Positions 15,346-52,295 of a stretch of 64,000 nt of DNA are shown one piece after another. Source of the stretch: Jejuia pallidilutea (GTDB lineage Bacteria; Bacteroidota; Bacteroidia; Flavobacteriales; Flavobacteriaceae); contig NZ_PVEO01000004.1 of assembly GCF_002973595.1 (NCBI RefSeq), positions 62,001 through 126,000 on the forward strand, in the 5' to 3' direction. A program made the translations under genes and the position numbers. The notes under the pieces are model-generated. The model had not been told where the DNA came from. It saw nothing but the letters and a program-made list of their open reading frames with translations, and made no database searches. The stretch's first letter is position 1. Each line of letters begins with the position of its first letter.

Positions 15346-15368
15346 TGGTCAACCAAACTGGTTAACCA
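15346..15368. promoter_or_regulatory. Tandem TGGTNNACCA operator upstream of PL6 operon
   Basis: Two 10-bp palindromes, TGGTCAACCA (15346-15355) and TGGTTAACCA (15359-15368), have 13 bp between centres. Three further arrays with identical spacing occur in the window. The shape matches E. coli UxuR/ExuR-type operators (TTGGTATACCAA), so the FadR-family protein at 31804 is the likely binder. The adjoining TAAATTGG is only an approximate -7 box here. Confidence 0.8.
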
Positions 15369-15478
15369 ATTTACAGATGTAAATTCTTCTTGCATAACGC
15401 ATAGTTTTCTGTTAACCTTTTAGATTTTTAAGTAATTGAAAAACTGTAGTTTAAAAGTAGCACATTAAAAATAAATAA

Positions 15479-17785
15479 ATGAGACATATTCTTTTAGTTT
15501 TTGTATTAGTCACAGTGGTTCTTGGTTGTGAAAGCAACCAAGAATCTAAATTATTAATCTCAGATATAGAGCAGCTAAATAATGCGATATCTGAGGCTAA
15601 ACCTGGAGAAGTTCTTGTTCTAAAAAACGGGACTTATAAAAATGTTCTAATAAATTTTAAAGCCAATGGCGAAAAAAACAACCCTATTACGCTTAAAGCT
15701 GAAACTAATGGAGAGGTAATTATTAGTGGTAAGTCCCACTTAAAATTTGGGGGCAATTATCTAGTGGTAGAAGGTTTGCATTTTAAAAACGGGTATTCAC
15801 CAAGTGATGCTGTAATTGAGTTTAGAATAGATGAGGAAACTATAGGGAACCATTGTACGGTTTCCGATTGCGTTATTGAAGATTTTAATAAAATGCATCG
15901 TGACGATTCTGATAGATGGGTGCAATTTTGGGGAAGGCATAATACCTTGGAAAACTGCTATATAGCAGGTAAAACAAACAGAGGGCCAACCATAAGAGTA
16001 GATTTAAAAGGTAACGCACATATTAATAATTACCATCAAATTATTGGAAATCATTTTGGGCCCAAACCTCCAAAAGGCGGTCCAAGTGGAGAAACCATTC
16101 AAATAGGCGATAGCTATTCTTCCATGTCGCCCAGTTATACCCTAGTTGCCAATAATTTATTTGAAGAGTGTAATGGTGAAGTAGAAATTATTTCCAGTAA
16201 AACCAATTTTAACGAGTTTAGAAATAATGTGTTTTATAAAAGCGAAGGCTCTCTGGTAACACGCCACGGAAACTATTGTAAAATAGATGGCAATTATTTT
16301 ATTGGAGATGGCGAGAATAAAAATATTGGTGGCATTAGAATAATCAATACTGGGCATTGGGTAACTAATAATTATTTCTACAATCTTAAAGGCGAAAGCT
16401 TTAGGAGTCCACTGGCGGTTATGAACGGTATTCCAAAGTCGCCATTAAACCGTTACAACCAAGTTACAGATGTAGTGGTTGCATACAATACCTATGTAAA
16501 TTGTGATGCGCCTTGGCAGTTTGGTGTTGGTACAAATATTAGTCAGAAAGACGTATTGCCACCATCAGAAATTCGTTCTGCAAGACCATTAAGAACCATT
16601 GTGGCAAACAATGTAATTTACAATGAAAAGGGCAATGAAACTATAGTAGTGGAGCACGATAAAGCAGATGGTGTTACATTTAAAAGTAATGCAGTGAATA
16701 ATCAAGGTGTTGCTTTTAAAGGGTATGAAGGTATTATTGCCAAGTCGTTTAATGTGGAAAAAGTAGCACCACATATTCTGTTACCAAGTAGTGATTTAGA
16801 TATTGAACCTTATCAGGGTTTTGAGTTTGAAAGTATTTCTAATGATCTTTTTGGGAATTCCCGAAATCAGAATAACACTATTGGGGCCGTAATATCTACA
16901 GAGGGGACTGTTCCTTCAATTTTAGACAAATCTAAATATGGTGCCAGTTGGTATTCCAACGAAAAAGAAGCTAGAGCACCACAAACGATAAATATTTCGG
17001 TAACCGATAATATTCAATCTAAAATAGATAAAGCAGAATCGGGCGACATCATTTTACTTGAAGAAGGACAGCATCTTGTAAAATCATCAATTGTAATTAA
17101 TAAGCATATTACAATTAAGGCCAATAAAAAGGGGAGTGTTACCTTACTTTACGAAGGTGAAGCAGATACGCCATTATTAGAATTGCACCCTAAGGGATTT
17201 CTTAATATCGAAAACGTTTCATTAAAAGGAGCCAATAGCCAAAAAGCTTTTGCATCTCTAAAAGAAAACATGTTTACTCATTTTGGGTTAACGGTAACAC
17301 ATTGTGATATTAGTGATTTTAACTATGTGTTGAAAGTCTATAAAGAATCTTTCGCAGAACGCATTACGTTTTTAAATACATCCATTTCAAATTGTTTCAA
17401 TGGTTTAGAGCTTTCTGAAGAAACCAACGATAAAGGCGATTACAATACCGAATACTTAACCGTTGAAAATTGCACCTTTGATAAAGTAAAACAAAACGTA
17501 ATAGATTATTACCGTGGCGGATACGATGAATCTACCATTGGCGGAAATCTATTGGTTGTAAATAGCACATTTACCAACTGTGGCGCACAGGAAGAAAATA
17601 ATATTTTATTAAATCACAGAGGAATTATTAATGTAAATATTGTTAATAATACATTTAAGAACAATCCTGTAAATCTTGTGGCATTGCTTTGGGGCGCAAA
17701 AAACAATACGCATTCGGGTAACACAATTATTAATTCTGGTAAAATTAAGGTTGAAGAAAATTTAAAACTAAAGTTAATGTACTAA
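15479..17785 (+). CDS. PL6 alginate lyase, two-domain, lipoprotein
   Basis: Depolymerises alginate by beta-elimination at or near the cell surface. The signal peptide ends in the lipobox VVLGC17. The N-terminal parallel beta-helix (about 25-480) is the chondroitinase-B/PL6 fold. The catalytic pair is K241 (in EIISSKTNFNEF) and R262 (in SLVTRHGNYC), 21 residues apart as in characterised PL6 enzymes. A second beta-helix domain covers about 500-768, as in the long two-domain PL6 class. It is the first of four genes (PL6, heparinase-fold lyase, PL17, KdgF) behind a tandem TGGTNNACCA operator. Preference for M, G or MG blocks cannot be read from the sequence. Confidence 0.92.
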   Translation: MRHILLVFVLVTVVLGCESNQESKLLISDIEQLNNAISEAKPGEVLVLKNGTYKNVLINFKANGEKNNPITLKAETNGEVIISGKSHLKFGGNYLVVEGLHFKNGYSPSDAVIEFRIDEETIGNHCTVSDCVIEDFNKMHRDDSDRWVQFWGRHNTLENCYIAGKTNRGPTIRVDLKGNAHINNYHQIIGNHFGPKPPKGGPSGETIQIGDSYSSMSPSYTLVANNLFEECNGEVEIISSKTNFNEFRNNVFYKSEGSLVTRHGNYCKIDGNYFIGDGENKNIGGIRIINTGHWVTNNYFYNLKGESFRSPLAVMNGIPKSPLNRYNQVTDVVVAYNTYVNCDAPWQFGVGTNISQKDVLPPSEIRSARPLRTIVANNVIYNEKGNETIVVEHDKADGVTFKSNAVNNQGVAFKGYEGIIAKSFNVEKVAPHILLPSSDLDIEPYQGFEFESISNDLFGNSRNQNNTIGAVISTEGTVPSILDKSKYGASWYSNEKEARAPQTINISVTDNIQSKIDKAESGDIILLEEGQHLVKSSIVINKHITIKANKKGSVTLLYEGEADTPLLELHPKGFLNIENVSLKGANSQKAFASLKENMFTHFGLTVTHCDISDFNYVLKVYKESFAERITFLNTSISNCFNGLELSEETNDKGDYNTEYLTVENCTFDKVKQNVIDYYRGGYDESTIGGNLLVVNSTFTNCGAQEENNILLNHRGIINVNIVNNTFKNNPVNLVALLWGAKNNTHSGNTIINSGKIKVEENLKLKLMY

Positions 17786-17794
17786 TTCGTATTT

Positions 17795-20014
17795 GTGAGC
17801 ATTTTAAGATACATACTTACAATTATTTGTTTAGCAATTACAGCTAATACTTTCTCTCAGAATATACCATCTGATGCGGTTATCCCTGTTGAAGAATTAT
17901 CTAAATATCTTAAAGAGGATGTAAAAGCTGAGTTCAATACGAAACATATCTCAACTTCTGCCTTGGCAAAATATTTTAGGGATAAATTCTCTGAACGTTA
18001 TTTCTACGATTGGCAAAATTTTAAGGAACGTTTTAAAATCTACATCTCGGTTTATTCAAGTGCTGAAAAAGAACATGTAGAAAGAGCACTAGACCACATG
18101 GCTAAGTACCCTGCCGACACAAAATGGCAATTGCCTTTTAATTACAAATTCGGAAAACCGGTAGATGCTTATGCGTTGCGCCATTTGGCGCGCCAACACA
18201 AAATGGTAGATATAGCCTTGTATTATCACTACGATAATAAGAATAAGGCCTATTTAAGCTATTTTAAAGAACAGTTACAATCTTTAAATACTGCATTTCA
18301 TACTGGTGATTATGAAAAAATAGAAGATGGTAATGGTGTTTATGAGGCTTTTAGATCTGGATACCGTATTTTAAACTGGTTACAAATACATAATATGTTT
18401 CTTGGTGAAGCAGACTATAATAATACAGATCAGCTTACAACAATAGCCACGTTATTACAGCATGGTGCCCATTTGTATCAGCGCAATCAAGTATTTAAAT
18501 CTGGAAACCACCAAACCAGAGGATTGTCTGCTCTGGCCATGGTTGCTATTTTGTTAAGAGACTTTAAGGATAGTGGCCAGTGGTACACGCATGCTATGGC
18601 TTTATTAGAAGAGCATCTTGCTAAAGAAATAAACAACGATGGATTTCAGTTTGAACGTACTGTACATTACCATATTAGCGATATTGGTAACTATTACTAT
18701 GTATATCAACTGGCAAAAGCAAGTAATTTAAAGGTAAGTGCGTATTGGGAGTCTAAATTAAAATCGTTGTTTACTACGTTAATTAAAATTGCTTATCCCG
18801 ATAAATCTGCACCAGTACTCTCTGATGATACTAATATACCTTGGGCAGAAAAGAACGATATATCTGGAGTATTAACTCTAGGGTATTTGTTATTTGAAGA
18901 CCCAGAAATGGGATACTTTGCCACAGATAAGGTAGCACCAAAAATGTATTGGTATTTAAGTGAATCCCAACTCAAATTGCTTTCAAATATTAAAGAAAAG
19001 AAACCAAGTTATACTTCTTTAAGTTTTCCAACAACAGGATACTATGTTCTGCGCGATGGTTATGGAAAAAATGATAATATGATGATGATTTCCGCAGGGT
19101 TGGATAATTTAAAACCAGACCACCAACATGGCGATATATTAGGTGTTCAAGCCATGGCAAATGGCAATGTTATTCTACCCAATTATCAAGTGCGCTATTA
19201 TCTAAAGGATTTAGAGTTGTTTAAAAATTCACTCACTAAAAATGTAGCATTAGTAGATGATGAGTTACAGGGTAAAGAATATACATCAAACAAAGGTGGT
19301 AGTGGTTTTGGTAAGTTTAAACAATTGCCAAACCCTCAAGTTGTTTCGTGGTTTACAGATAAGGATATAGATGTTTTTATAGGTAAGCACAACGGTTTTA
19401 ATAATATTAATGTAGATTACAGCAGGCAGGTTGTATATTTAAAAAAAGATTTTTGGGTTATAAAAGATAACTTTAAATCTAAAACACCTCACACATACAA
19501 ACAAGTATGGCAAGGACATTATACAGAAACACATGCGCCAAATCTACTGCGGGCTACTTTTGCTAACGGTGCAGGTTTAGATATTTACCAATTAAAAAAG
19601 GTAGATAAGGTGACGCGAAACGGCACTAGGGGAAAGGAATGGGCAATAGTTTCTAAAAACGCAAATACAGATTTTAGTTTTATTACACTTTTATTTCCGT
19701 TTGAAGCATTTGATAAGCGCATTGATGAGAACAACCCAAATGATAATTTAAAGGGTTGGACTATAACAAATAATGAGGTTTTAAAACTATCTAAACAAAA
19801 TACTAGTATTTATTTTTCAACATCTAATTTAAAAATTGATGATAATACAATAGCTTTTTCCAGCGAAGTAGATGTGCTTGTTAACCTTAATAAAACAAAT
19901 ACTGTTGTAAGGTTGTTAAGTGAAAATAAAGTGTCTGGAACAATTTTAAACAATAATAGCAAAAAACCATTTCAGTTAAGCCCTGGAAATACAATTAAAC
20001 TAGAAAAAAAATAA
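17795..20014 (+). CDS. Heparinase II/III-fold polysaccharide lyase, probable alginate lyase (PL39- or PL17-like)
   Basis: A 739-aa secreted lyase with a GTG start 10 bp after the PL6 stop and a signal peptide ending near TANTFSQ22. Residues about 70-400 are an alpha-helical toroid with GNHQTRGLSA (N238, H239) and the Tyr-rich VHYHISDIGNYYYVY, both typical of active-site segments in heparinase-fold lyases. Residues about 410-739 are an antiparallel beta-sandwich of the Heparinase_II_III type, with DHQHGDILGVQAMANG carrying candidate catalytic histidines. It differs clearly from the PL17 gene that follows. Its position between PL6 and PL17 supports alginate as substrate. PL39 is my best guess, not a certainty. 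Confidence 0.75.
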   Translation: MSILRYILTIICLAITANTFSQNIPSDAVIPVEELSKYLKEDVKAEFNTKHISTSALAKYFRDKFSERYFYDWQNFKERFKIYISVYSSAEKEHVERALDHMAKYPADTKWQLPFNYKFGKPVDAYALRHLARQHKMVDIALYYHYDNKNKAYLSYFKEQLQSLNTAFHTGDYEKIEDGNGVYEAFRSGYRILNWLQIHNMFLGEADYNNTDQLTTIATLLQHGAHLYQRNQVFKSGNHQTRGLSALAMVAILLRDFKDSGQWYTHAMALLEEHLAKEINNDGFQFERTVHYHISDIGNYYYVYQLAKASNLKVSAYWESKLKSLFTTLIKIAYPDKSAPVLSDDTNIPWAEKNDISGVLTLGYLLFEDPEMGYFATDKVAPKMYWYLSESQLKLLSNIKEKKPSYTSLSFPTTGYYVLRDGYGKNDNMMMISAGLDNLKPDHQHGDILGVQAMANGNVILPNYQVRYYLKDLELFKNSLTKNVALVDDELQGKEYTSNKGGSGFGKFKQLPNPQVVSWFTDKDIDVFIGKHNGFNNINVDYSRQVVYLKKDFWVIKDNFKSKTPHTYKQVWQGHYTETHAPNLLRATFANGAGLDIYQLKKVDKVTRNGTRGKEWAIVSKNANTDFSFITLLFPFEAFDKRIDENNPNDNLKGWTITNNEVLKLSKQNTSIYFSTSNLKIDDNTIAFSSEVDVLVNLNKTNTVVRLLSENKVSGTILNNNSKKPFQLSPGNTIKLEKK

Positions 20015-20015
20015 T

Positions 20016-22283
20016 ATGAAACCATATGTATATCTTTTGTGTGTTGCCTTAGTTACAATCGTGTCTTGTAACGATGGTAGTGATTCTAAATCCAACGAAA
20101 ATCAATCAGAATCAGCACACCCAAGTTTAATCTTAACCCAACAAGGTGTTAAGGATATTAAGGCAAATTTGGGCAGTATTCCCATATTTGATGAAACCTT
20201 GGCCGCAACAAAAAAAGAGATTGATGCTGAAATAAAAGCGGGTTTTGATGTACCAACACCAAAAGATTACTCTGGAGGCTATACGCACGCTACACATAAA
20301 AAGAACTATAGTTTAATGCAAAAAGCAGGTGTGCTATATCAAATCCTAGATGATGAAACGTATGCTAAATTTGTAAAAGATATGCTCTTTTCTTATGCTG
20401 AACAGTATCCAACATGGCCTGCGCATCCAAAAACGAGATCTTATGCCAGAGGCAAACTGTTTTGGCAATGTTTAAACGATTCTAATTGGTTGGTCTATAC
20501 CAGTCAAGCTTACGATTGTATCTATAACTATTTAACACAGGAAGAACGAGAGACCCTAGAAACAGAATTATTTAAGCCTTTTGCGAATTATATTTCAAAA
20601 GAAAATCCACAATTTTTTAACAGGGTTCATAATCACAGTACCTGGGGGAATGTAGCCGTAGGAATGATAGCTTTGGCTATGGATGATGATAGCCTTTTAC
20701 AGGCGGCACTTTATGGATTAAAAGACATAAAACTCGCTAAGGATATGAAAGATAATGATGGTGGCTATATAAATCCTGAAGATGGTAAAATAGGGTTCTT
20801 CGCAAACCTTGATGAGCCATTTTCCCCTGATGGATATTACACCGAAGGGCCTTATTACCAGCGCTATGCCATGTACCCGTTTTTAATATTTGCACAAGCA
20901 TTAGAAAATAAAAAACCAGAATTAAAAATACTGGAGTATAAAGATGGAGTGCTACTTAAGGGGGTTAACGCCTTATTGAATTTAACCGATGCCGATGGAG
21001 ATTTTTTCTTGCTTAACGATTCACAAAAAGGAATGTCTTACTACAATAGCTCGTTGGTATCAGCAGTAAATATAGCATATCACTTTGGAGGGAACAATCC
21101 AGAATTATTGAGTATTGCCCAAAAACAAGGTGAAGTAACATTAGATGATGCTGGTTTAGCAGTGGCACTAGGAATTCAACAAGGGAAGGCTAAACCTTTT
21201 AATAAAAAATCTATAGAATTATCAGACGGACCAAATGGAAATCAAGGCGGTGTAGGTATTTTGCGTAGTGCACCAATGGAGTTGGTGTTTAAATACACAG
21301 CGCACGGATTGAGCCATGGACACTACGATAAATTATCTTACGCATTATTTGAAGATGGTAACGAAGTTGTACAAGATTATGGGATGAGCCGTTTCGTAAA
21401 CATTGAACAAAAAGGAGGTGGAAATTACTTAAAGGAAAACACTACATGGGCAAAACAAACCATTTCGCATAACACTATCGTTCAAAACGAAACATCGCAA
21501 TTTCAAGGAAAATACGATATAGGTAGTAAACACCATTCAAACGGATATATTTTTAGTGTAGCGCAAGACAATGTGCAAGTAGCAAGTGCCAAAGAAGAAA
21601 ATGCATACCCTGGCACAAAATTGCACCGAACTATGGTAATTATTAAAGATAGCGATTATAATAACCCTTACATTCTAGATATTATGCGAGTGCAATCCAA
21701 AAGCTCAAATCAATACGATTTACCTTTTTATTATCTAGGGCATATTATGCAAACTAATTTTGAGTATGATAAATTAAAAACGCCGCAAATATTGGGAACA
21801 TCAGATGGTTATCAACACCTATACAAAGAGGCTATCGCTACAGCAAACGGGAAACATATTAAATTAAATTGGTTGTTAAACAACACCTTTTATACGTATT
21901 CTGCGGTAACTTCCAATAACGATGAAATTATCTTAGCACGCATAGGCGCAAACGACCCGGAATACAATTTGCGACAAGAACCCGCTTTAATTTTACGCAA
22001 AAAGAATACTAAAGATGCTGTATTCGCTTCTATTATAGAATCGCACGGTACTTATACACCAGTTTCTGAGATGGCTTTGAATGCCTACAGTAATATTAAA
22101 AATATAGAGGTTGTGTATGATACTAGTGCATATACAGCTGTTAAAATAGAAACAAAAAACAATACAACAAGAGTCTTTATCATTTCAAACGAAAATAATG
22201 ATAAAGAGGCTCAACATTCATTAAATATAAACAACAAAACGTACACCTGGAAAGGGAGCTACGTATTAACAGAAATCAATTAA
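20016..22283 (+). CDS. PL17 oligoalginate lyase lipoprotein
   Basis: Exo-type lyase that releases unsaturated monouronate (DEH precursor) from alginate oligomers in the periplasm. The signal peptide has lipobox TIVSC18. The helical barrel includes VHNHSTWGN with N206 and H207, and SPDGYYTEGPYYQRYAMYPF (about 270-289), matching the Asn/His and Tyr catalytic segments of Alg17C. The beta-sandwich carries the third element HGLSHGHYDKLSYALFEDG (H430, H434, H436). The 755-aa length is normal for PL17. It starts 2 bp after the previous lyase and is followed 11 bp later by KdgF, which takes its product. Confidence 0.92.
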   Translation: MKPYVYLLCVALVTIVSCNDGSDSKSNENQSESAHPSLILTQQGVKDIKANLGSIPIFDETLAATKKEIDAEIKAGFDVPTPKDYSGGYTHATHKKNYSLMQKAGVLYQILDDETYAKFVKDMLFSYAEQYPTWPAHPKTRSYARGKLFWQCLNDSNWLVYTSQAYDCIYNYLTQEERETLETELFKPFANYISKENPQFFNRVHNHSTWGNVAVGMIALAMDDDSLLQAALYGLKDIKLAKDMKDNDGGYINPEDGKIGFFANLDEPFSPDGYYTEGPYYQRYAMYPFLIFAQALENKKPELKILEYKDGVLLKGVNALLNLTDADGDFFLLNDSQKGMSYYNSSLVSAVNIAYHFGGNNPELLSIAQKQGEVTLDDAGLAVALGIQQGKAKPFNKKSIELSDGPNGNQGGVGILRSAPMELVFKYTAHGLSHGHYDKLSYALFEDGNEVVQDYGMSRFVNIEQKGGGNYLKENTTWAKQTISHNTIVQNETSQFQGKYDIGSKHHSNGYIFSVAQDNVQVASAKEENAYPGTKLHRTMVIIKDSDYNNPYILDIMRVQSKSSNQYDLPFYYLGHIMQTNFEYDKLKTPQILGTSDGYQHLYKEAIATANGKHIKLNWLLNNTFYTYSAVTSNNDEIILARIGANDPEYNLRQEPALILRKKNTKDAVFASIIESHGTYTPVSEMALNAYSNIKNIEVVYDTSAYTAVKIETKNNTTRVFIISNENNDKEAQHSLNINNKTYTWKGSYVLTEIN

Positions 22284-22293
22284 ATTAAAAATT

Positions 22294-22668
22294 ATGGAAA
22301 GATTTAGCGAAAAGTACATCATCACAAAAGACATGGAATGGGAAAATCTAGGAGGCGGTGTATCTAGAAAGTTCTTAGGTTACGATAACCAAATTATGAT
22401 GGTAAGAGTAAAGTTTGATAAAGGCGCTTTAGGTGCTCCACATCAACATTTTCATACACAAGCTACCTTTTGTGTTTCAGGTAAATTTGAATTTGAAATA
22501 GATGGTGTTAAGCAAATTGTAGAAGCAGGAGATGGCGTTTATATAGCTCCTAATTTATTGCATAGCGCTGTGTGTTTAGAAGAAGGAGAACTTATTGATA
22601 CATTTAGCCCTGTAAGAGAAGACTTCTTAACTGGTGAAGGACCGTCTTATTTTGGAGATAAAAAGTAA
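22294..22668 (+). CDS. kdgF: KdgF-type cupin, converts unsaturated uronate to DEH
   Basis: Small single-domain cupin (124 aa) that catalyses linearisation of 4,5-unsaturated monouronates to 4-deoxy-L-erythro-5-hexoseulose uronate. Metal ligands are consistent with H50, H52 and Q56 in PHQHFHTQATF and H90 in PNLLHSAV. No signal peptide is visible. It is the last gene of the PL6 operon, directly after the exolyase that makes its substrate. Confidence 0.9.
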   Translation: MERFSEKYIITKDMEWENLGGGVSRKFLGYDNQIMMVRVKFDKGALGAPHQHFHTQATFCVSGKFEFEIDGVKQIVEAGDGVYIAPNLLHSAVCLEEGELIDTFSPVREDFLTGEGPSYFGDKK

Positions 22669-22758: not shown

Positions 22759-22766
22759 TATATTTG
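22759..22766 (+). promoter_or_regulatory. Bacteroidota-type promoter -7 box (TATATTTG)
   Basis: TATATTTG fits the TAnnTTTG consensus, with an upstream TTTG at 22739-22742 (16-bp spacer). Its last two bases are the first two bases of the operator at 22765, so a bound regulator would cover the promoter. Confidence 0.65.
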
Positions 22767-22787
22767 GTTAACCAGATTGGTAAACCA
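22765..22787. promoter_or_regulatory. Tandem TGGTNNACCA operator upstream of alginate SusC
   Basis: TGGTTAACCA (22765-22774) and TGGTAAACCA (22778-22787), 13 bp centre to centre, as in the other arrays. It overlaps the promoter box by two bases, suggesting repression relieved by a uronate-derived inducer. Confidence 0.82.
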
Positions 22788-42295: not shown

Positions 42296-45200
42296 ATGAA
42301 AAAAACAAAACAGTTAAAAAAGGTACTATTCCTATTATTGGGTTTTTGTTTTGTGCTAAATGTTAGCGCTCAAGAAAGAACAATTTCAGGAACAGTAACA
42401 TCCCAATCGGATGGATTAACATTACCAGGAGTAAATGTTATTGTGAAAGGCACAAGCATCGGTGCATCAACCGATTTTGATGGTAATTACACCATTGATG
42501 TAAGTGGCAGTGGCGTGGTTCTAGTATTCAGTTACGTGGGTTACGCAACGCAAGAAGTTGTAGTTGGAGATTCCAACACAGTAAACGTAGCACTTACCGA
42601 AGACTTAGCAGCTTTAGATGAGGTTGTTGTAGTTGGATATGGTGCCAGAAAAAAGAGCGACATCACAGGAGCGGTATCTTCGGTTAAGTCTGAAGAATTA
42701 AACGCATTTCCACTGTTGAATGCAGAACAAGCATTGCAAGGTCGTGCAGCAGGTGTGGTTGTACAATCTAATAATGGTGGTGAACCAGGAGCTCCAATCA
42801 ACATCAAAATTAGAGGTAATACCTCCATTAATGCAAGTAGTGCACCTCTTATTGTTGTAGATGGTTTTGTGGGCGCAACGATGCCACAACCTAACGATAT
42901 TGAGTCTATGGAAGTTTTAAAAGACGCATCAGCAACCGCTATTTATGGTTCTAGAGGTTCTAATGGTGTGGTTTTAGTTACTACAAAAAAGGGTAGAAGT
43001 GGTAAAATGATTATAGAAATAAATTCTAATTATTCTATACAAAATACAGCCAGCGAATTAGATCTGTTAAACGCAGACGAGTTTGCAGCATACCAACAAA
43101 CAATAAATTCGGGTTATACCCAAGGACCTGCTAATACAGATTGGCAAGACTTACTGTATAGATCAGGTAGTACTCAAAACCATCAATTTTCTTTCTCTGG
43201 AGGAAGCGACAATATTAACTTCTATGCTTCTGCTACATATTTTAAACAAGAAGGTGTTATAATAAATTCTGAGTTTGAAAGAATTTCTTTTTTATCTAAC
43301 ATAGATGCACAAGTAACCGACAAATTGAAGTTGGGTATGAATGTTTTTGGAAGTAGGGGTAATAAAGATGGTGTACCTACTCAGTCAACAGGTGAAACTG
43401 CAAATGGTGGTGGCGATGATGTTATTTCATTAATGTTTAGATTTGCTCCAGATCAACCAATACAAAATGCAAATGGTGTAAACACCATTAACTCTGTAGG
43501 TGATAACGTAGATAATCCTTATGCTATTGCTACAGAAGGTATTAACGAAACAAGAACAGACAGATATAGAGCTAATTTATATGCTAATTATGACATTATA
43601 GAAGGACTCGCTTTTAAAACTACATTTGGTTACAGTACAGCAAATGGTAATGAGGGGGTTTTTAGACCATCAACATTAATCGTAACAGCTGGAGACGGTG
43701 TAGGCGGAAGAGCTACTATTGAAAATTTCAAGAGAACAAATATATTAAGTGAGAACTACTTAACGTATAACACGGAAATAGGTAAAGGAAGTTTAACGGC
43801 TCTAGCAGGATACTCATACCAAAAAACGTCTACAGATAGATTTTCTGCAGGTGCTCAAGGATTTACTTCAGATTCCTTTTCTTACCGTAATTTAGGGTCT
43901 GGTGCAGTGCAATTGATACCAACATCTTCTTTTTCAGAGGTAGAAATTCAATCTCAATTTGGTAGATTAAATTATGATTACGACGATAAGTACCTATTAA
44001 CAGCTACTGTAAGACGCGATGGTTCTTCTAATTTTGCTGAAAATGAAAAATATGCTATTTTCCCTTCTGGTGCTATAGGTTGGAAAATATCAAACGAAAA
44101 CTTTTTAAAAGACAACGATAAAATTTCTAACTTAAAGTTAAGAGCTAGTTATGGTGTAACTGGTAACCAAGCTATTCCAGCTTACGGTTCTCTAGCAAGT
44201 TTTGGTTCAGTGTTTACTCCTATAAATGGTGCACAAGTAATTAATGTAACGCCTAACCAAGTTGCTAACCCAGATTTAAAATGGGAATCGTCTTACCAAA
44301 CAAACATTGGTCTAGATTTAGGGTTGTATAATAATAGAGTATCACTTTCATTAGATTATTATAATATTGATACTAAAGACCTTATTATAGAGGATTCTAG
44401 TCAACCACAATATTTAGGTTTTCTTACTTCTGCTAGTTTAAGAAACGTAGGTGAGGTAAATAATAGAGGTTTTGAGATTAACTTAAATACAAGAAATATT
44501 ACAAACGAAAACTTCACTTGGACTACAGATTTTAACTGGTCTAGAAACAGAAATGAATTTGTTACCTTACTAAATGGTCAAGATATTTTCCAAGATGCGT
44601 CTCCAGGATATTTTAATATTCCTCGTACACACGTATTACGTGAAGGTGAAGCTGTAGGTGTATTCTGGGGATTTGATTATCAAGGCGTGTATCAAGGTGG
44701 TACATTGCCAGAGGGTACAGCGCTTTTACCAGGTGCTGGAGCAGGAGATCAATTATTCGCTGACTTAAATGATGATGGTGAGATTACAACGTCCGACCAA
44801 CAAATAATTGGAGATCCTAACCCAGACTTTACTTTTGGTTTTACAAATAACTTTACTTATAAGAACTTCGATTTAAATATTTTCTTCCAAGGTTCTCAAG
44901 GTGGAGACATTATGAACCTTACTAGTTTACAGTTGTTCAGTGGAGATTCTAATGCTACTAGAGATATATTAAACTCTTGGACACCAACAAATACAGATAC
45001 TAATATTCCACGTGCCGCAGTTAGACAAAAGACTATTTCTTCTAGATTCGTTGAAGATGGAAGTTATATTAGATTGAGAAACATAGCTTTAGGTTATAAC
45101 TTACCAGCGGATATCACAGAAAAACTTGGAATGGATAACGTTAGAATTTCTATTAGTGGGCAAAACTTGTTAACTTTTACAAATTATTCTGGTCTAGATC

Positions 45201-45319
45201 CAGAAGTTAATTTCTTAGGAAGTGGTGGTTCAGGAAACCAGAACACATTTAATGGATTTGATTTTGGAAACTATCCAAATATAGAATCTTTTAACTTTAG
45301 TGTTAATCTTAAATTTTAA
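42296..45319 (+). CDS. susC: SusC-like TonB-dependent receptor of the second locus
   Basis: Outer-membrane importer of the second uronan locus. The signal peptide ends near NVSAQ26. A carboxypeptidase-like extension follows (ISGTVTSQSDGLTLPGVNV, STDFDGNYTIDVSG, FSYVGYATQEV), then the plug (ALQGRAAGVVVQSN, IKIRGNTSINASSAPLIVVD, MEVLKDASATAIYGSRGSNG) and the barrel ending SFNFSVNLKF. The 1007-aa length is normal. It is clearly divergent from the alginate SusC. SusD starts 23 bp later. Two control motifs lie upstream. Confidence 0.95.
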   Translation: MKKTKQLKKVLFLLLGFCFVLNVSAQERTISGTVTSQSDGLTLPGVNVIVKGTSIGASTDFDGNYTIDVSGSGVVLVFSYVGYATQEVVVGDSNTVNVALTEDLAALDEVVVVGYGARKKSDITGAVSSVKSEELNAFPLLNAEQALQGRAAGVVVQSNNGGEPGAPINIKIRGNTSINASSAPLIVVDGFVGATMPQPNDIESMEVLKDASATAIYGSRGSNGVVLVTTKKGRSGKMIIEINSNYSIQNTASELDLLNADEFAAYQQTINSGYTQGPANTDWQDLLYRSGSTQNHQFSFSGGSDNINFYASATYFKQEGVIINSEFERISFLSNIDAQVTDKLKLGMNVFGSRGNKDGVPTQSTGETANGGGDDVISLMFRFAPDQPIQNANGVNTINSVGDNVDNPYAIATEGINETRTDRYRANLYANYDIIEGLAFKTTFGYSTANGNEGVFRPSTLIVTAGDGVGGRATIENFKRTNILSENYLTYNTEIGKGSLTALAGYSYQKTSTDRFSAGAQGFTSDSFSYRNLGSGAVQLIPTSSFSEVEIQSQFGRLNYDYDDKYLLTATVRRDGSSNFAENEKYAIFPSGAIGWKISNENFLKDNDKISNLKLRASYGVTGNQAIPAYGSLASFGSVFTPINGAQVINVTPNQVANPDLKWESSYQTNIGLDLGLYNNRVSLSLDYYNIDTKDLIIEDSSQPQYLGFLTSASLRNVGEVNNRGFEINLNTRNITNENFTWTTDFNWSRNRNEFVTLLNGQDIFQDASPGYFNIPRTHVLREGEAVGVFWGFDYQGVYQGGTLPEGTALLPGAGAGDQLFADLNDDGEITTSDQQIIGDPNPDFTFGFTNNFTYKNFDLNIFFQGSQGGDIMNLTSLQLFSGDSNATRDILNSWTPTNTDTNIPRAAVRQKTISSRFVEDGSYIRLRNIALGYNLPADITEKLGMDNVRISISGQNLLTFTNYSGLDPEVNFLGSGGSGNQNTFNGFDFGNYPNIESFNFSVNLKF

Positions 45320-45342
45320 TCATTAATAAAAAGACATATATA

Positions 45343-46860
45343 ATGAAAACATACAAATATTTATTCTTATTGGTAGGCTTATCAATACTGGGATGTTCAG
45401 ATTTGGAAGAAGAGCCTATAGGTTTGTTAGCTCCAGATGGTTTTTTTAAGACTACTGCAGATATACAAACAGCAGCAAATGGTGCTTACGGGCACATGAC
45501 ACATGAGGATTTCTGGGGTAGAAAGTTATCACTAACCCTTATGCTTAGAGGAGACATGGTAGCTATTGGAGATCCATCAACATCAGCAAGAAGAATTGAT
45601 CATGATGTATTTACCGTACAAGCCGATAATGGTATGATTGATGGCTACTGGCTTAGAACATACCAAATCATAGCTGCTGCTAATCAAGCTATTGCTGGTG
45701 CTGAAGATGTAGACGTTGCTGATGAAATAAAGAACCCTGTAACAGCTCAGGCATATTTTACAAGAGCATTTACTTACTTTCATTTGGTAAGACAATTTGG
45801 AGATATTCCTTACATCACTGAACCAGTTAGAGATTTAGCTGCTGCAAGTTCTATAAGTAAAACCCCAGCATCAGAAGTTTATGCAAATATTATTGCAGAT
45901 TTAGAGTTTGCTAAAACTTGGCTGCCAAATACACAGCCAGCAAGGTCTATTCCTGCTAAATCAGCAGCACACTCTTATCTAGCTTTGGTATACTTAACAA
46001 TGGGAGAGTACCAAAAAGCTTATGATGAAGCAAAAGGTGTTATTGATAATGAAAGCGTTTACAAATTAGGATTAGAGCCAGATTTTCAAGATTTATTTAA
46101 CGCCGCTACAATTGATGCGTCCTTAGAACCAATATTTACCCTAGATTTTATTGGAATTAGTGATGGCGACGATGGTAGAGATTACCAAGCAGCCTTAACA
46201 GGTTTGAGAGATGACGAGCAATATGGTTTAGGAGGCGGTTGGTCTGTTGCAGTACCTTCATTAGAAGTTTACAATAGATGGGACGGTCGCGATTACAGAA
46301 AAGCCGTTAGCTTAGATACAACCGGAGTTTTTGATGGCGTTGTTCAGCCTTACACTGTTTTTAAAGAAAGCGGTGCTGGTAGAGGAGTAAACCGACCACA
46401 CATAGCAAAATATACACGTGGCACTGGTAATACAGCAACAGGTAATGGTAGAGGCTCAGAACAGAATTATTGCATGATGCGTTATGCCGAGGTATTGTTG
46501 ATAGCAGCAGAAGCATTAAATGAAGTTAGTCCAGGTACAGCTGAAGCAGATGGATATGTAAATAGAGTTAGAGCTAGAGCTAGAAGTGGTAACGGTTCTG
46601 CTTTTCCCGCCGATGTTTCTGGATTATCTCAAGACGATTTTAGAGATATGGTTCTAGAAGAGCGTAAATGGGAACTTGCCTTTGAATTTAAAAGATGGTA
46701 CGACATAGCTAGAAGAAGAATGGGTGCAGAAGTGTTTAGTGCTTCGGGCTTAGAAGGATTTAAAGAAAATTTTGATCCAAATAGAGATTATCTATTCCCA
46801 ATACTAGCGGATGAGTTGGCAAGAAACCCCAATTTATTGCCACAAAATCCTGGTTACTAA
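45343..46860 (+). CDS. susD: SusD/RagB-like lipoprotein of the second locus
   Basis: Surface glycan-binding partner of the second SusC. Lipobox SILGC18. SusD signatures include GYWLRTYQIIAAANQAI, AQAYFTRAFTYFHLVRQFGDIPYI, MMRYAEVLLIAAEALNEV, YVNRVRARA and MVLEERKWELAFEFKRWYDIARRRMG, with the terminal DYLFPILADELARNPNLLPQ. The 505-aa length is usual. Unlike the alginate set, no PKD lipoprotein follows; a strong terminator does. Confidence 0.95.
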   Translation: MKTYKYLFLLVGLSILGCSDLEEEPIGLLAPDGFFKTTADIQTAANGAYGHMTHEDFWGRKLSLTLMLRGDMVAIGDPSTSARRIDHDVFTVQADNGMIDGYWLRTYQIIAAANQAIAGAEDVDVADEIKNPVTAQAYFTRAFTYFHLVRQFGDIPYITEPVRDLAAASSISKTPASEVYANIIADLEFAKTWLPNTQPARSIPAKSAAHSYLALVYLTMGEYQKAYDEAKGVIDNESVYKLGLEPDFQDLFNAATIDASLEPIFTLDFIGISDGDDGRDYQAALTGLRDDEQYGLGGGWSVAVPSLEVYNRWDGRDYRKAVSLDTTGVFDGVVQPYTVFKESGAGRGVNRPHIAKYTRGTGNTATGNGRGSEQNYCMMRYAEVLLIAAEALNEVSPGTAEADGYVNRVRARARSGNGSAFPADVSGLSQDDFRDMVLEERKWELAFEFKRWYDIARRRMGAEVFSASGLEGFKENFDPNRDYLFPILADELARNPNLLPQNPGY

Positions 46861-46898
46861 AATATATTATGTTTAGATTTAGTTGTTTACTTTTTATC

Positions 46899-46929
46899 CT
46901 TGGGTTTATATTGGTTATATAAACCCAAG
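46899..46929. terminator. Hairpin after second SusD
   Basis: A 12-bp perfect stem, CTTGGGTTTATA with TATAAACCCAAG, and a 7-nt loop. A U-run exists only on the minus-strand reading, so it may act as an RNA-stabilising hairpin on the plus strand. Confidence 0.5.
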
Positions 46930-46949
46930 AAAAAAGTGATTGTAAGTTT

Positions 46950-47006
46950 AACAGGTTCAAATAAGTATTCATAGTTTAGGATATTTATTTTGAACCTGTT
47001 TTTTTT
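46950..47006 (+). terminator. Intrinsic terminator after second SusD
   Basis: AACAGGTTCAAATAA (from 46950) pairs with TTATTTTGAACCTGTT (to 47000) with one bulged base, followed by a T6 tract. It separates SusCD from the GH88 unit, which has its own upstream motif. Confidence 0.75.
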
Positions 47007-47103
47007 GTTTAAGCAGTAAACAATCGCGGTACCGCCTAATAACCTAAATTTATAACAGCAACATCTATTATTCTTATTGTAACTGCTTTAAAATAAGGCT
47101 TTA

Positions 47104-47129
47104 GTACTTTTTTATACCCTAATTGGTAC
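47104..47129. promoter_or_regulatory. GTAC-type motif upstream of GH88
   Basis: GTACTTTTTTATACC (47104-47118) followed by GGTAC ending at 47129. Spacings are 10 and 12 bp. It agrees with the other copies in the conserved GTAC, TACC and third TAC positions. Candidate HTCS site. Confidence 0.58.
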
Positions 47130-47261
47130 TTATGCATTCTCGATATTACTTACTTTTATAGAGTAAACTAAATAGTCATCTCCATATATAAAACTAAGTA
47201 TCTTATATATTTAATTTAAATAATCATCGTCATTAAAACGATTAGAATTTTTAATGTAATT

Positions 47262-48452
47262 ATGAAAAAACTAAAAATACTCATTATAGCTACGCTTTCA
47301 ATAGTTTTAAGTTGTAAAAATGATACCACTACATCGAAAGAACAATTTAAATCATTTACCGAGCTACTATCGGTTCGTTACCAAAAATTAAAAGAATATC
47401 CTTTAGATTCGTTAGCATTTCCGCGTAGTGTTACGTTAAGTAGTAATACTATAAAAAAAGTACCATCTAAAGATTGGACGAGCGGTTTTTTTGCAGGTAA
47501 TCTATGGCAAATTTATGAGTTAACCGGAGACGAAGCCTATAAAAACAAAGCCAAAGAATGGACTAAATTTATAGAAAAAGAAAAATTTAATGACAGAACC
47601 CATGATATGGGTTTTAAAGTGTTCTGTAGCTTTGGGAATGGTTTAAAACATGAAAATAACGAAGATTATAAAAACATTATAGTAGAAAGTGCAAAAACAC
47701 TAAGCACGCGCTTTAATGAAAAAATAGGAAGTATTCGTTCTTGGGATTTTAATAGAGACATTTGGCAATTTCCTGTTATTATAGATAATATGATGAATTT
47801 GGAATTGTTGTTTGAAGCAACCAAAATTTCGGGTGATAGTACATTTCATAAATTAGCAGTAACCCATGCAAATACCACATTAAAAAATCATTTCAGAGCA
47901 GATAATAGTTGTTACCACGTTGTAGATTACGATACAATAACCGGCCAACCAAGACTTAAAGTAACGCACCAAGGTTTTAATGACGAATCTTCTTGGGCTA
48001 GAGGGCAAGCCTGGGCCATTTATGGTTATACCATGGCTTACCGCTATACAAATAGCCTACAATATTTAGAGCGTGCTAAATTAACAGCTCAATTTTACCT
48101 AAATCACGAAAACTTACCAGAAGATAATATTCCTTACTGGGATTTTGAAGATCCTGCCATACCAAATGCACCGCGCGATGTTTCTGCTGGAACCATTGTC
48201 GCATCCGCATTGGTAGAACTTTATAAATACACTGAAAATGATATGTATCTTAATTATAGCAGAAGTGTAGTTGAGAATTTAAAATCAGAAAAGTATATTT
48301 TAGATGAAACTGTAAGCGCACCATTCATATTAGATCATAGTACAGGTAATTGGCCCAAAAAAGATGAAATCGATGAGCCTATAGTTTATGGCGATTACTA
48401 TTTTTTAGAAACAATGTTACGCTTAAAAGCGTTGAAAGATAAAACACCTTAA
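47262..48452 (+). CDS. GH88 unsaturated glucuronyl hydrolase lipoprotein
   Basis: Hydrolyses the 4,5-unsaturated uronyl residue from lyase-generated oligosaccharides. Lipobox IVLSC18. (alpha/alpha)6 barrel with SKDWTSGFFAGNLWQIY, THDMGFKVF (D115) and VIIDNMMNLELLF (D175); the two aspartates match the conserved GH88 catalytic positions. SSWARGQAWAIYGYTMAYRY is a further family block. The 396-aa length fits. Its presence means the locus handles a polymer whose lyase products end in unsaturated glucuronate, not plain alginate. GH2 follows 128 bp later. Confidence 0.92.
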   Translation: MKKLKILIIATLSIVLSCKNDTTTSKEQFKSFTELLSVRYQKLKEYPLDSLAFPRSVTLSSNTIKKVPSKDWTSGFFAGNLWQIYELTGDEAYKNKAKEWTKFIEKEKFNDRTHDMGFKVFCSFGNGLKHENNEDYKNIIVESAKTLSTRFNEKIGSIRSWDFNRDIWQFPVIIDNMMNLELLFEATKISGDSTFHKLAVTHANTTLKNHFRADNSCYHVVDYDTITGQPRLKVTHQGFNDESSWARGQAWAIYGYTMAYRYTNSLQYLERAKLTAQFYLNHENLPEDNIPYWDFEDPAIPNAPRDVSAGTIVASALVELYKYTENDMYLNYSRSVVENLKSEKYILDETVSAPFILDHSTGNWPKKDEIDEPIVYGDYYFLETMLRLKALKDKTP

Positions 48453-48580
48453 AGCACTAAGCTATAAGCTGTTTTAAGAGAAAAATTTTTAGAACATAAA
48501 GCAGTTCTACAAAATCCCCATTGCTTTAGTATTAAGTAAAATTAGTAATAGAATATTTAACAACAAACCAAAAATTGAAG

Positions 48581-50995
48581 ATGAAATTTAGCATTTCAGT
48601 ACTTAAAAAAAGTCTTTTCCTTATTTGTGTGATCATGGTTTCATGTAATGCTACCACTGAAAAAAAACAGGGACGTTCAAAAACAAATATTAATAAAGAG
48701 TGGCAGTATTTAGAAAACAATACAAATTCAACCGCCCAAGCTTTGGCTTTAGCTTCATGGCAAGATATTAATTTACCACATACATGGAATGCTCTAGATG
48801 CAACCGATGTTACACCTGGTTATAGAAGAAGTGCGGGTTGGTACAAAAAAGAATTAAATATTCCTACGGTAGCTTCCAATCAAATATACCAGTTGTATTT
48901 TGAAGGTGTAAATATTACAAGCGAAGTATATGTAAATGGTAAAAAAGTAGGAGGGCATATAGGTGGTTACATAGGTTTTAATATTGATATTACTGATGCG
49001 ATTTCACAAGGCAACAATACAATTTTAGTAAGGGTTGATAATGGCTGTAATCCAGAAGTTATTCCATCACAAAAAAGCGATTTTTTTATTTTTGGAGGTA
49101 TTACCAGAGATGTATGGCTAGAAACCTTTCCTAAAGAACACTTATCTAATTTAAAAGTTTCAACACCCAACGTTACAAACGATAATGCAAATTTATTAGC
49201 AACTTTAACCGTTAATAATTTAAGTGATAATTCAACAATTAAAGCTATTTTAATTGATAAAAATGGTACTGAAATACAGTCTCAAAAGCTTGAGAATATT
49301 AACTCTAACCTCGAAATAAGTTTTAATGATTTAAAAGATATTAAATTATGGGATACAGATAATCCATATTTATACACTCTAAAAGTACAGCTATTACAAA
49401 ATGATACAACAATAGATGAAATTTCAGAATCTATCGGGTTTAGATGGTTCGAGTTTAAAGATTACGGTGCTTTTTACCTTAACGGAAAACGTTTACTTTT
49501 AAGAGGAACGCATAGGCACGAGGAGCATGCTGGTGTTGGGGCAGCTATGAGTAATGCGCAACATAGAGCAGATATGGAGCTTATAAAAGATATGGGCGCT
49601 AACTTTGTACGTTTGGCACATTATCCACAAGATCCTGAAGTTTACAAAGCTTGTAATGAGTTGGGTTTATTAGTATGGGACGAGCTGCCATGGTGCCGTG
49701 GAGGTTTAGGAAACGAGACTTGGAAAAAGAACACTAAAACCATGTTAAAGGAAATCATTCATCAAAATTACAACCACCCAAGTATTATTTTGTGGTCTCT
49801 TGGTAACGAAATTTACTGGTTGCCAGACTTTGAGAATGGAGACGATAGAGCAGCTATTAACACCTATTTAAAAGAGTTGAACGATTATGCTCATGAACTA
49901 GATCCATCAAGAAAAACTGCCATTAGAAAATATTACGAAGGTGCAGATATTGTAGATGTGTTTTCTCCTTCAATTTGGTCTGGTTGGTATTCTGGTAGTT
50001 ATAAAAGTTACCAAAAAGCGATTGATACATACAAGAAAGAATATCCACATTTCTTACATACAGAATACGGTGGTTCCAGTCATTTGGGAAGACATACCGA
50101 AAACCCAATAACAGGAGAAGGCAAAATACAAGCTGATGGTTGGGAAGAAGCTATTGTGCAAACCGATGTTGCTAATATTGCTCAAATAGGCGACTGGAGC
50201 GAGAACTACATTGTAGATTTATTCGATTGGCATTTAAGAATTTCAGAAAATGATTCTACTTTTGTGGGTAATGCCCAATGGGCTTTTAAAGATTTTGGTA
50301 CGCCTTTAAGACCAGAAAATGCAATTCCTTACATGAATCAAAAAGGTTTAGTAGATAGGGCAGGAAACCCTAAAGATGCATTTTATGTGTTTAAGAGTTA
50401 TTGGGGTAAGGCACCTTTTACTTATATTGAATCTCATACATGGACGGAGCGCCAAGGACCAAAAGGACTTTCTAGATCTGTAAGCGTTTATAGCAATTGT
50501 CCAGAGGTAGAGTTGTTTTTAAATGGTAAAAGCTTAGGTGTTAAAAAACGAGATATTAAAGCATTTCCAGCAGCAGGATTAAACTGGGAACTTAATTTTA
50601 AAGAGGGTGAAAATAAACTACTTGCTATTGGAAAAACCAAAGAGGGTAAAACGGTAGAAGATGCCTTGACATTAAATTATAGATTCACTAAAAATGGTAA
50701 GGCCAAAGGATTAAAATTAGAGTATACTAAACTCGAAAATGGAAACTATTTAATTACTGCTATAGCGCATGATAGTGAAGGTTTACGTTGTCTGGATTAC
50801 GAGAGTAGAGTATATTTTCAGTGTTTATCTGGCGGAGAAGCATATAAAAGTTTAGGCACCCCTACTGGTAGCGAATCTATAGAAATGGCAAATGGAAAAG
50901 CATCTATTGAAGTAAAAAGACACAATTCTGAAGCACCTTTAGAGGTTATGGTGCTAAATCAAAATTTTAAAGGAACTTATTTAACCATAGAGTAA
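48581..50995 (+). CDS. GH2 glycoside hydrolase lipoprotein (beta-glucuronidase/galactosidase family)
   Basis: Exo-acting beta-glycosidase. I use ATG 48581 instead of the upstream in-frame TTG 48575 because it gives a proper lipoprotein leader (IMVSC22). The order is sugar-binding jelly roll (about 25-190), immunoglobulin-like domain (about 190-290), TIM barrel (about 290-600) and further beta domains. The acid/base is E410 in WSLGNEIYW and the nucleophile E495 in LHTEYGGSSH. RLAHYPQDPEVYKACNELGL and WDELPWCRGG are typical of GH2. It sits between GH88 and a PL38-like lyase. Substrate could be a neutral beta-sugar or glucuronate; sequence does not decide. Confidence 0.92.
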   Translation: MKFSISVLKKSLFLICVIMVSCNATTEKKQGRSKTNINKEWQYLENNTNSTAQALALASWQDINLPHTWNALDATDVTPGYRRSAGWYKKELNIPTVASNQIYQLYFEGVNITSEVYVNGKKVGGHIGGYIGFNIDITDAISQGNNTILVRVDNGCNPEVIPSQKSDFFIFGGITRDVWLETFPKEHLSNLKVSTPNVTNDNANLLATLTVNNLSDNSTIKAILIDKNGTEIQSQKLENINSNLEISFNDLKDIKLWDTDNPYLYTLKVQLLQNDTTIDEISESIGFRWFEFKDYGAFYLNGKRLLLRGTHRHEEHAGVGAAMSNAQHRADMELIKDMGANFVRLAHYPQDPEVYKACNELGLLVWDELPWCRGGLGNETWKKNTKTMLKEIIHQNYNHPSIILWSLGNEIYWLPDFENGDDRAAINTYLKELNDYAHELDPSRKTAIRKYYEGADIVDVFSPSIWSGWYSGSYKSYQKAIDTYKKEYPHFLHTEYGGSSHLGRHTENPITGEGKIQADGWEEAIVQTDVANIAQIGDWSENYIVDLFDWHLRISENDSTFVGNAQWAFKDFGTPLRPENAIPYMNQKGLVDRAGNPKDAFYVFKSYWGKAPFTYIESHTWTERQGPKGLSRSVSVYSNCPEVELFLNGKSLGVKKRDIKAFPAAGLNWELNFKEGENKLLAIGKTKEGKTVEDALTLNYRFTKNGKAKGLKLEYTKLENGNYLITAIAHDSEGLRCLDYESRVYFQCLSGGEAYKSLGTPTGSESIEMANGKASIEVKRHNSEAPLEVMVLNQNFKGTYLTIE

Positions 50996-52195
50996 GTGTT
51001 AAATCCACAAGAGAAAATAATTCTTATAAAAAAGCACAAATATGTAGTATTATGTTGCCTATTACTCAGTTTAGGTTGTACAAAGCCTAAAACGCATTTA
51101 AGCACAGTATTACAACTTGAAAAAGAACGCGTTTTGCAGGAAGTTGATAACTATATTAACCTTGCACCTATAACTGTAACATCTAGTTTTAGCAAACGTA
51201 GTGCTGGCACAAAACACGATTTTTATTCTGAAGGTGATTACTGGTGGCCAAATCCAGATGATGTAGAAGGGCCTTATATTAGAAAAGACGGATTAAGTAA
51301 TCCAGATAACTTTGTAGCCCACAGACAAGCTATGATTAGGTTGAGTAGGTTAAGCGGAGCTTTGGTATCAGCATATTTGGTAACCCGTGATGATGTTTAT
51401 TTAGAGCAACTAAAACCACATCTAAATGCATGGTTTATAGATAGTGCTACTAAAATGAATCCTAATTTATTATATGCCCAAGCCATTAAAGGACGTGTTA
51501 CCGGTAGAGGTATTGGTATTATAGACACCATACATTTAGTAGAAGTAGCCTTGGCCATTAAGGTGTCTCAAACATCAACGGTTTTTTCAAAAACTGAAAT
51601 TGCAGAACTAAAAAACTGGTTTTCGGAGTATTTACAATGGATGACGACTCACGAATATGGTATAAAAGAGCGCGATAATGGGAATAATCACAGCACATGT
51701 TGGGCTATGCAAGTTGCAGCATTTGCCAGTTTAGTTGGCAATACACAGCAATTAGAATTCTGTAAAATTTTTTTTAAAGAAACATTATTACCCAACCAAA
51801 TGGGAGATAATGGCGGTTTTCCCAAAGAATTGGCCAGAACAAAACCTTATGGTTACTCCATATTTAATCTAGATGCTTTTTTTGGATTGGCGCAAATTTT
51901 ATCAGATAAAGAAGATAATTTATTTGACTTTACAACAAAATACGGAAAAAGCTTAAAGTTAGGCTTAGAATTTCTATATCCATATTTGGAAGATAAAACC
52001 AAATGGCCTTATAAGAAAGATGTTATGTATTGGGATGATTGGCCAACCAAACAACCTTCCTTATTGTTTGGAGGACTTAATTATAGCAACAATAAATATC
52101 TAAATACATGGGAAGCTTTACCGCCACTTCCAGAAAAAGAGGAAATATTAAGAAATATGCCTGTTAGGTATCCATTATTATGGGTTGAACGTTAA
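50996..52195 (+). CDS. Alginate_lyase-fold (PL38-like) polysaccharide lyase lipoprotein
   Basis: The GTG start abuts the GH2 stop, indicating translational coupling. A long basic N-region (MLNPQEKIILIKKHKY) precedes a lipobox SLGC28. The all-helical domain (about 45-390) has GDYWWPNPDDVEGPYIRKDG, the active-site-type RDNGNNHSTCWAMQ (N231, H232) and NQMGDNGGFPKELARTKPYGYS. These are features of the alginate_lyase domain (PF05426) and of family PL38, whose members act on glucuronan or alginate. With GH88 in the same operon a glucuronate-containing backbone is the better guess. PL5 is less likely given the sequence around the NH motif. Confidence 0.78.
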   Translation: MLNPQEKIILIKKHKYVVLCCLLLSLGCTKPKTHLSTVLQLEKERVLQEVDNYINLAPITVTSSFSKRSAGTKHDFYSEGDYWWPNPDDVEGPYIRKDGLSNPDNFVAHRQAMIRLSRLSGALVSAYLVTRDDVYLEQLKPHLNAWFIDSATKMNPNLLYAQAIKGRVTGRGIGIIDTIHLVEVALAIKVSQTSTVFSKTEIAELKNWFSEYLQWMTTHEYGIKERDNGNNHSTCWAMQVAAFASLVGNTQQLEFCKIFFKETLLPNQMGDNGGFPKELARTKPYGYSIFNLDAFFGLAQILSDKEDNLFDFTTKYGKSLKLGLEFLYPYLEDKTKWPYKKDVMYWDDWPTKQPSLLFGGLNYSNNKYLNTWEALPPLPEKEEILRNMPVRYPLLWVER

Positions 52196-52266
52196 TATTT
52201 GATTTTTATTACAAAGCGCTAACAAACAAATATTTATATTTTATATGAAATTTAAATTCATTTTCC

Positions 52267-52274
52267 TATATTTG
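52267..52274 (+). promoter_or_regulatory. Promoter -7 box (TATATTTG) of lamin-tail gene, upstream promoter
   Basis: TATATTTG fits TAnnTTTG and overlaps the first operator copy by two bases, exactly as at 22759 and 42202. No convincing -33 box is visible. Confidence 0.58.
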
Positions 52275-52295
52275 GTTAACCAGTTTGGTAAACCA
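52273..52295. promoter_or_regulatory. Tandem TGGTNNACCA operator upstream of lamin-tail gene
   Basis: TGGTTAACCA (52273-52282) and TGGTAAACCA (52286-52295), 13 bp apart. The pair of core sequences is the same as at 22765. It puts the secreted lamin-tail protein in the probable uronate regulon. Confidence 0.82.

Follow-up and report, generated by a model that had tools for sequence, protein, structure and literature searches.

The closest described counterpart of the system reported here is AusR of Zobellia galactanivorans, whose original study is reportedly that of Dudek et al. (2020). As far as the available text of the later papers goes, AusR of Zobellia is a GntR-family protein that binds promoters via single, double or triple operator copies, and the intermediates formed after the addition of alginate inhibit the AusR–promoter complexes (PMC7874173); repression and a sentry lyase are further described for this system (PMC8286568) and a duplication of AusR is mentioned (PMC8073546). 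Here, we describe a comparable system in a stretch of 64,000 nucleotides from Jejuia pallidilutea (Flavobacteriaceae; contig NZ_PVEO01000004.1, positions 62,001–126,000 of the forward strand), hereafter the window. The palindrome TGGTNNACCA is repeated in this stretch in short arrays with a fixed step of 13 bp, and the sequence evidence makes it very probable that an AusR-type repressor, the product of the gene at 31804, uses them as its operators.

Like AusR in the accessible part of its description, the 31804 product is predicted to be a GntR-family repressor in an alginate locus, with an alginate regulon and multiple operator copies; upstream of alginate genes in the J. pallidilutea genome, the operators form double and triple arrays, and two loci of Zobellia barbeyronii (L014 and L065) contain the same kind of pair. 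The palindrome of the FadR subfamily is given, in the portion of the source available, as TKGT/ACMA boxes with 2–3 nt between GT and AC (PMC4494728), a pattern to which the TGGT-NN-ACCA of the present sites conforms. The initial annotation of the window, made from its sequence alone, had likened the sites to near-identical palindromes of UxuR and ExuR. This stands for UxuR, a FadR-subfamily regulator of Proteobacteria that likewise has 2 nt between GT and AC, but not for ExuR, which is listed with 3 nt in the same excerpt (PMC4494728). The 31804 product itself is unlike UxuR, scoring far under the cut-off of the UxuR model (NF007588; 73.6 versus 442 bits), and it is not classed as a UxuR equivalog. 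DgoR of Escherichia coli (GntR/FadR) is similar in that it represses via two close inverted repeats over the promoter, but it senses D-galactonate and its IR1 sequence differs, according to the text available (PMC12288454). A literature search on binding sites and tandem operators listed no relevant paper, which says nothing about the original AusR paper. The kind of system is already known from Zobellia, and the initial annotation was right in substance.

An exact-site search located 11 copies of TGGTNNACCA in the window against 0.95 expected, a number that none of 100 shuffles reached. Nine of the 11 fall into four plus-strand arrays with a 13-bp step: array 1 at 15346–15368 (sites starting at 15346 and 15359; 5′ of the PL6 gene at 15479), array 2 at 22765–22787 (22765 and 22778; 5′ of SusC1 at 23134), array 3 at 42208–42243 (42208, 42221 and 42234; 5′ of SusC2 at 42296) and array 4 at 52273–52295 (52273 and 52286; 5′ of gene 52409 for a protein secreted by the type IX secretion system, T9SS). 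These coordinates and copy numbers (two, two, three and two) agree with the initial annotation, as does the intergenic placement ahead of plus-strand units: all four arrays lie between open reading frames (ORFs) of at least 100 residues and 5′ of plus-strand ORFs. The two remaining exact sites (42778 and 55247) are solitary and lie within ORFs. When up to three mismatches were allowed, the pair pattern gave six matches in the window against 0.20 expected. The whole genome (4,110,363 bases in 34 contigs) contains six exact pairs, which correspond to five arrays as the triple array gives two pairs; the count remains six when the gap is widened to 0–30 bp, with none in the reversed control. The regulon of four promoters proposed earlier is therefore complete for the window but one short for the genome. 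The fifth array (C1:318590–318612) lies outside the window, ∼100 bp 5′ of a gene for a secreted protein of 888 residues that combines a PL6-family domain (PF14592) with a T9SS tail. Since the search ignored gene content, it is of note that this array still pointed to an alginate-lyase-type target. The only additional pair in the genome at up to two mismatches (C5:76261) was discounted, as the reversed control gives three.

The 13-bp step was also found across the family. In a sample of 397 Flavobacteriaceae genomes, a search over all gaps of 0–30 bp yielded 290 pairs of exact sites, 254 of them at a gap of 3 (the 13-bp step) and 36 spread over the other 30 gaps; the reversed control over all 31 gaps gave 40 pairs by hand count, so that pairs at the other gaps are no commoner than expected by chance. 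Among the 36 off-step pairs, at least three (in G026, G225 and G246) are spaced 26 bp apart, with a one-mismatch site halfway. Of 308 pair-orientations, 44 show a further site (up to two mismatches; 22 exact) one 13-bp step beyond an exact pair, compared with zero to two cases for each of the 11 remaining offsets in the range 8–19. The spacer is three bases long and fits R-W-Y (ATT 35, AAT 26, AAC 24, ATC 23 and GAT 11 of 135 pairs selected for carrying the promoter box described below), so that the site reads YTGGTNNACCAR with one base between neighbours. A step of 13 bp corresponds to ∼1.24 helical turns (at 10.5 bp per turn) and would place successive dimers on neighbouring faces, where contact is possible; cooperative binding of tandem dimers is plausible. 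The sites might instead be independent, non-cooperative operators, the step reflecting only how closely they can be packed or having been left behind by tandem duplication, and this is the alternative that survives best, as a sizeable minority possibility. A site with its conserved flanks occupies 12 bp, which puts 13 close to the minimum, and single copies are also attributed to AusR in the available text (PMC7874173); against this, the spacer bases vary while their length is constant, and no other gap rises above the level of the reversed control.

The arrays are held in a fixed register to a promoter element. TAnnTTTG is the −7 consensus of Bacteroidota, and the same string appears with Bacteroides promoters in the accessible parts of papers found by the literature search. 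The candidate −7 element TATATTTG occurs on the plus strand at 22759–22766, 42202–42209 and 52267–52274, its final two bases being common to the first operator of arrays 2, 3 and 4, respectively, which bears out the two-base overlap reported for three of the four arrays; TATATTTG also overlaps the first site of the fifth array. Exact matches to a single site joined to the −7 box number seven in the genome, four of them being arrays; those at C3:364819, C4:196886 and C7:67906 lie within ORFs and were judged to be due to chance. A scan of a wider sequence collection gave at least 118 stretches (L009–L126) holding 143 arrays, on which the figures for oriented arrays rest. Of the 143, 105 could be oriented by a gene 3′ of the array whose product resembles a window protein, and 103 of these with enough flanking sequence, together with the five of the J. 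pallidilutea genome, make up 108 oriented arrays (L038 is counted among them as a relative of 52409, although it was later dropped from that family). Among the matches listed, TAnnTTTG is in register in 98 of the 108, with two bases common to an operator; it starts six bases ahead of the exact array in 92 cases and 19 bases ahead (one degraded site further) in six. TTG lies 22 bases ahead of the box in 46 of the 92. The strand of the box agrees with that of the gene in 94 of the 105 oriented arrays and disagrees in two, with boxes on both strands in one and none in eight, and a mirror box at the far end of the array was present in only two of the 135 box-selected pairs. It is conceivable that the repressor doubles as an activator or that the arrays are roadblocks inside the transcript, since the −7 element precedes sites 2 and 3, but we consider this improbable: the overlap of operator and −7 element is the classical place for blocking polymerase, and AusR is reported as a repressor in the text available (PMC7874173, PMC8286568).

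The predicted repressor (31804–32541, plus strand) combines a GntR winged helix–turn–helix (PF00392, E = 1.5e-18) with an FCD domain (PF07729, E = 5.9e-27) and is the only FCD-domain gene in the genome. AusR, too, is an FCD-domain regulator. It lies within the alginate polysaccharide-utilization locus, 3′ of SusCD and between the PL7 gene (30748) and genes for a major facilitator superfamily (MFS) transporter and a short-chain dehydrogenase/reductase (SDR). Its best sequence match in the PDB is PdhR, followed by NanR and other GntR-type regulators, and it reaches the cut-off of none of the 25 NCBIfam families matched. The closest relatives among the array loci compared are 79% identical, and the FCD protein of Z. 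barbeyronii (L065) is 65% identical over 231 residues. The 31804 product is best read as a putative orthologue of AusR, the alginate repressor of Zobellia.

The distribution of the pair follows that of the regulator. The exact pair was found in 98 of the 397 genomes (254 pairs; none in any genome for the reversed control of the fixed pair), the related genomes being where the initial annotation had suggested looking for it. An FCD match is present in 165 genomes and is strong (E ≤ 1.1e-20) in 105; 97 of the 98 pair-containing genomes have a strong match, and 97 of the 105 strong-FCD genomes have the pair. The sole genome with a pair and no FCD gene (G154) carries the pair within a susC-like reading frame. 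Eight strong-FCD genomes lack an exact pair. Five of them (G019, G132, G207, G213 and G225) contain two to six one-mismatch pairs each, with variant sites TGGTTTTCCA/TGGAAAACCA or similar; all but one of these pairs are on the contig of the FCD gene, and the FCD proteins are 74–79% identical to 31804. The other three have no one-mismatch pairs, and their best FCD proteins are 33% (G077) and 28% (G217) identical or without a match at E = 1 (G202), the comparison in G202 and G217 covering the best FCD gene of each. A further genome, G242, has PL7 genes, a 48% identical FCD protein and no exact pair, but a one-mismatch pair lies 81 bp ahead of the start of the FCD match; as the match begins at query residue 18, this pair is near the probable start codon, and the FCD gene is followed by SusC-, SusD- and PL6-like genes. 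Together with the exact-pair counts, these exceptions indicate that the arrays follow relatives of 31804. The assignment of 31804 as the binder, made in the initial annotation, is thus supported by its being the sole FCD gene, by the co-occurrence and by the exceptions.

Several points weigh against this assignment. The genomes and loci are related, so that the counts are not independent, and the threshold for a strong FCD match was set after the data had been seen; any FCD match at all is present in 68 of the 299 pair-less genomes too, compared with 97 of the 98 with a pair. Eight FCD-free control genomes gave 0, 1, 2, 1, 1, 3, 7 and 0 pairs at up to two mismatches (one-mismatch pairs: one in G061 and one in G068), and loose-pair counts therefore mean little; what counts is one-mismatch pairs near the FCD gene. 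Array 1 lacks TAnnTTTG at the usual register, as do nine more of the 108 oriented arrays; four of these ten lie in Proteobacteria loci (L019, L021, L027 and L045). Finally, alginate genes and AusR travel together, so that co-occurrence alone cannot exclude another binder. Among 80 scanned of the 292 genomes without a strong FCD match, PL7 scored above the cut-off only in G242 and G127 (below it in a third), and neither has an exact pair, two such genomes making a weak test. That a different regulator encoded in the locus binds the arrays, for instance the hybrid two-component system (HTCS) regulator (37706) or the GntR/periplasmic-binding-protein regulator (5082), is nonetheless very unlikely, for although both are in the window and a non-FCD alginate-locus factor would give nearly the same co-occurrence, TGGTNNACCA fits the FadR-subfamily consensus with a 2-nt centre in the available text (PMC4494728), the HTCS carries an AraC-type HTH_18 domain and its gene adjoins a different repeated box, no array is near 5082, and in three Aquimarina loci (L012, L034 and L049) an array lies immediately 5′ of the FCD gene.

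Sites, spacing, register, co-occurrence and targets can be read from the sequence, and for the AusR-type repressor encoded at 31804 they suggest the following mechanism. One dimer would bind each 12-bp site, and the packing of sites with one base between them would account for the fixed step. With the first site overlapping the −7 element and later ones running toward and across the transcription start, two or three dimers would cover the promoter in the absence of alginate and block polymerase. Alginate breakdown products would free the repressor and allow expression of five units that comprise lyases, two SusCD importers, a transporter, a reductase, a secreted protein and the distant PL6 protein. 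Since 31804 sits in one of the units predicted to be repressed, the regulator would limit its own synthesis.

The targets in the window, with operon extents that we infer, are all on the plus strand. Unit 1 (15479–22668) encodes PL6 (PF14592), heparinase-II/III-like, PL17-like (Hepar_II_III_C and Alginate_lyase) and cupin proteins. Unit 2 (23134–34625) encodes SusC, SusD, two PKD-matching proteins (one of them below the cut-off), PL7, the regulator, MFS and SDR proteins, and unit 3 (42296–52195) encodes SusC2, SusD2, GH88-like and GH2 proteins and a PF05426 lyase. The fourth target (52409–53479) is the gene for a secreted protein of 356 residues. At locus L109, a gene pair resembling SusC2 and SusD2 (62 and 53% identical) comes with a triple array and neighbours SDR (81%), MFS (48%) and lyase-like (49%) genes, an arrangement that links this type of SusCD pair to alginate metabolism. 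Across the array loci, the genes 3′ of arrays are mostly alginate lyases, SusC, MFS and FCD genes, and the conservation upstream of related genes on which the initial annotation had staked its regulon is borne out. For 17 of the 38 listed arrays that could not be oriented, one neighbouring ORF was scanned: 11 are PL7 lyases and the other six are kinase-like, Nramp-like, a kinase/6PGD fusion, a PfkB kinase, esterase-like and a protein with a T9SS tail only. Several of the other 21 sit at locus ends or within ORFs.

No operator pair precedes two minus-strand genes of the window, a PL6-family gene (53810–56194) and a PF14099 lyase-like gene (34705–35772), either of which might serve as a low-level sentry lyase. 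The region 5082–15028, also without operator pairs, is a sugar-catabolism block with the GntR/periplasmic-binding-type regulator, an FGGY kinase, a class II aldolase and an FMN dehydrogenase. Outside the family, arrays lie 5′ of SusC-like genes (32% identical to SusC1) in two Bacteroidales records (L048 and L082, one of them Tidjanibacter from deer rectum), and pairs with the 13-bp step occur within ∼230 bp of FCD- or MFS-like genes in Pantoea, Morganella, Cupriavidus and Formivibrio (L019, L027, L045 and L086). About 60 chance pairs are expected in the whole collection (arithmetic with uniform bases), but hardly beside FCD genes.

The protein encoded at 52409 represents an uncharacterised family of secreted proteins that recurs as a target behind arrays. 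A search with its first 285 residues (E ≤ 1e-8) found relatives in ten of the 397 genomes, eight of which have an array upstream, each pair with at most one mismatch. The relative is the first gene behind the array in six (G000, G392, G207, G084, G321 and G044), and an ORF of 309 or 320 residues intervenes in G130 and G024. All eight have a strong FCD gene, whereas the two without an array (G148 and G361) have no FCD match. Three more relatives lie directly behind arrays at L058, L069 and L093, loci that were, however, found via their arrays; the one at L058 (953–2164, minus strand) is near MFS, SDR, kinase-like and aldolase-like ORFs, named by eye. L038 and L064 were dropped as relatives because their alignment covers only 88 residues, apparently the tail. 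Their proteins (L038:2809–3726 and L064:2832–3755) are secreted, lie directly behind arrays and have a T9SS-like tail with a different N-terminal part, for which a sugar-binding role is a guess. Outside the T9SS tail of 52409, no Pfam match of note was found, and PDB sequences gave nothing below E = 1; its predicted structure has a mean pLDDT of 45.7 and is unusable. The protein may resemble lamin-tail domains.

Two of the target promoters carry a second box. Exact copies of GTACTATTTTGTACC, a candidate HTCS site, occur on the plus strand at 41963–41977, between the HTCS gene and SusC2, and at 52328–52342, between array 4 and gene 52409; these are the only two in the genome, and one mismatch adds two elsewhere. 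A two-mismatch copy is located at 47104. In 12 related loci, a search at up to three mismatches gave only three matches, each with three mismatches (one in L109 and two in L190), none of them convincing. If GTACTATTTTGTACC is the HTCS box, SusC2 and 52409 would need HTCS activation in addition to release of the repressor.

The target set differs from that of AusR of Z. galactanivorans, as far as its available account goes, in including the distant PL6 protein, the SusC2/GH88/GH2 unit and 52409. To that account (PMC7874173), the present analysis adds the rigid spacing, the promoter register, the fifth target, the 52409 family and the candidate HTCS box at two promoters. We further propose, tentatively and at somewhat less than even likelihood, that the alginate regulon in about a quarter of the family is defined by a portable promoter–operator cassette, in which a −7 element is fused to two or three operators with a rigid step of 13 bp and dimers touching one another, and that this cassette marks the uncharacterised 52409 family as a new alginate-binding or alginate-processing protein. 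A single DNA signature could serve to read the alginate loci of marine Flavobacteriaceae, with the array predicting regulator, promoter and targets, including genes far from the locus and uncharacterised secreted proteins, and the arrays would offer a direct test of cooperation between tightly packed FadR-type dimers on a Bacteroidota promoter.

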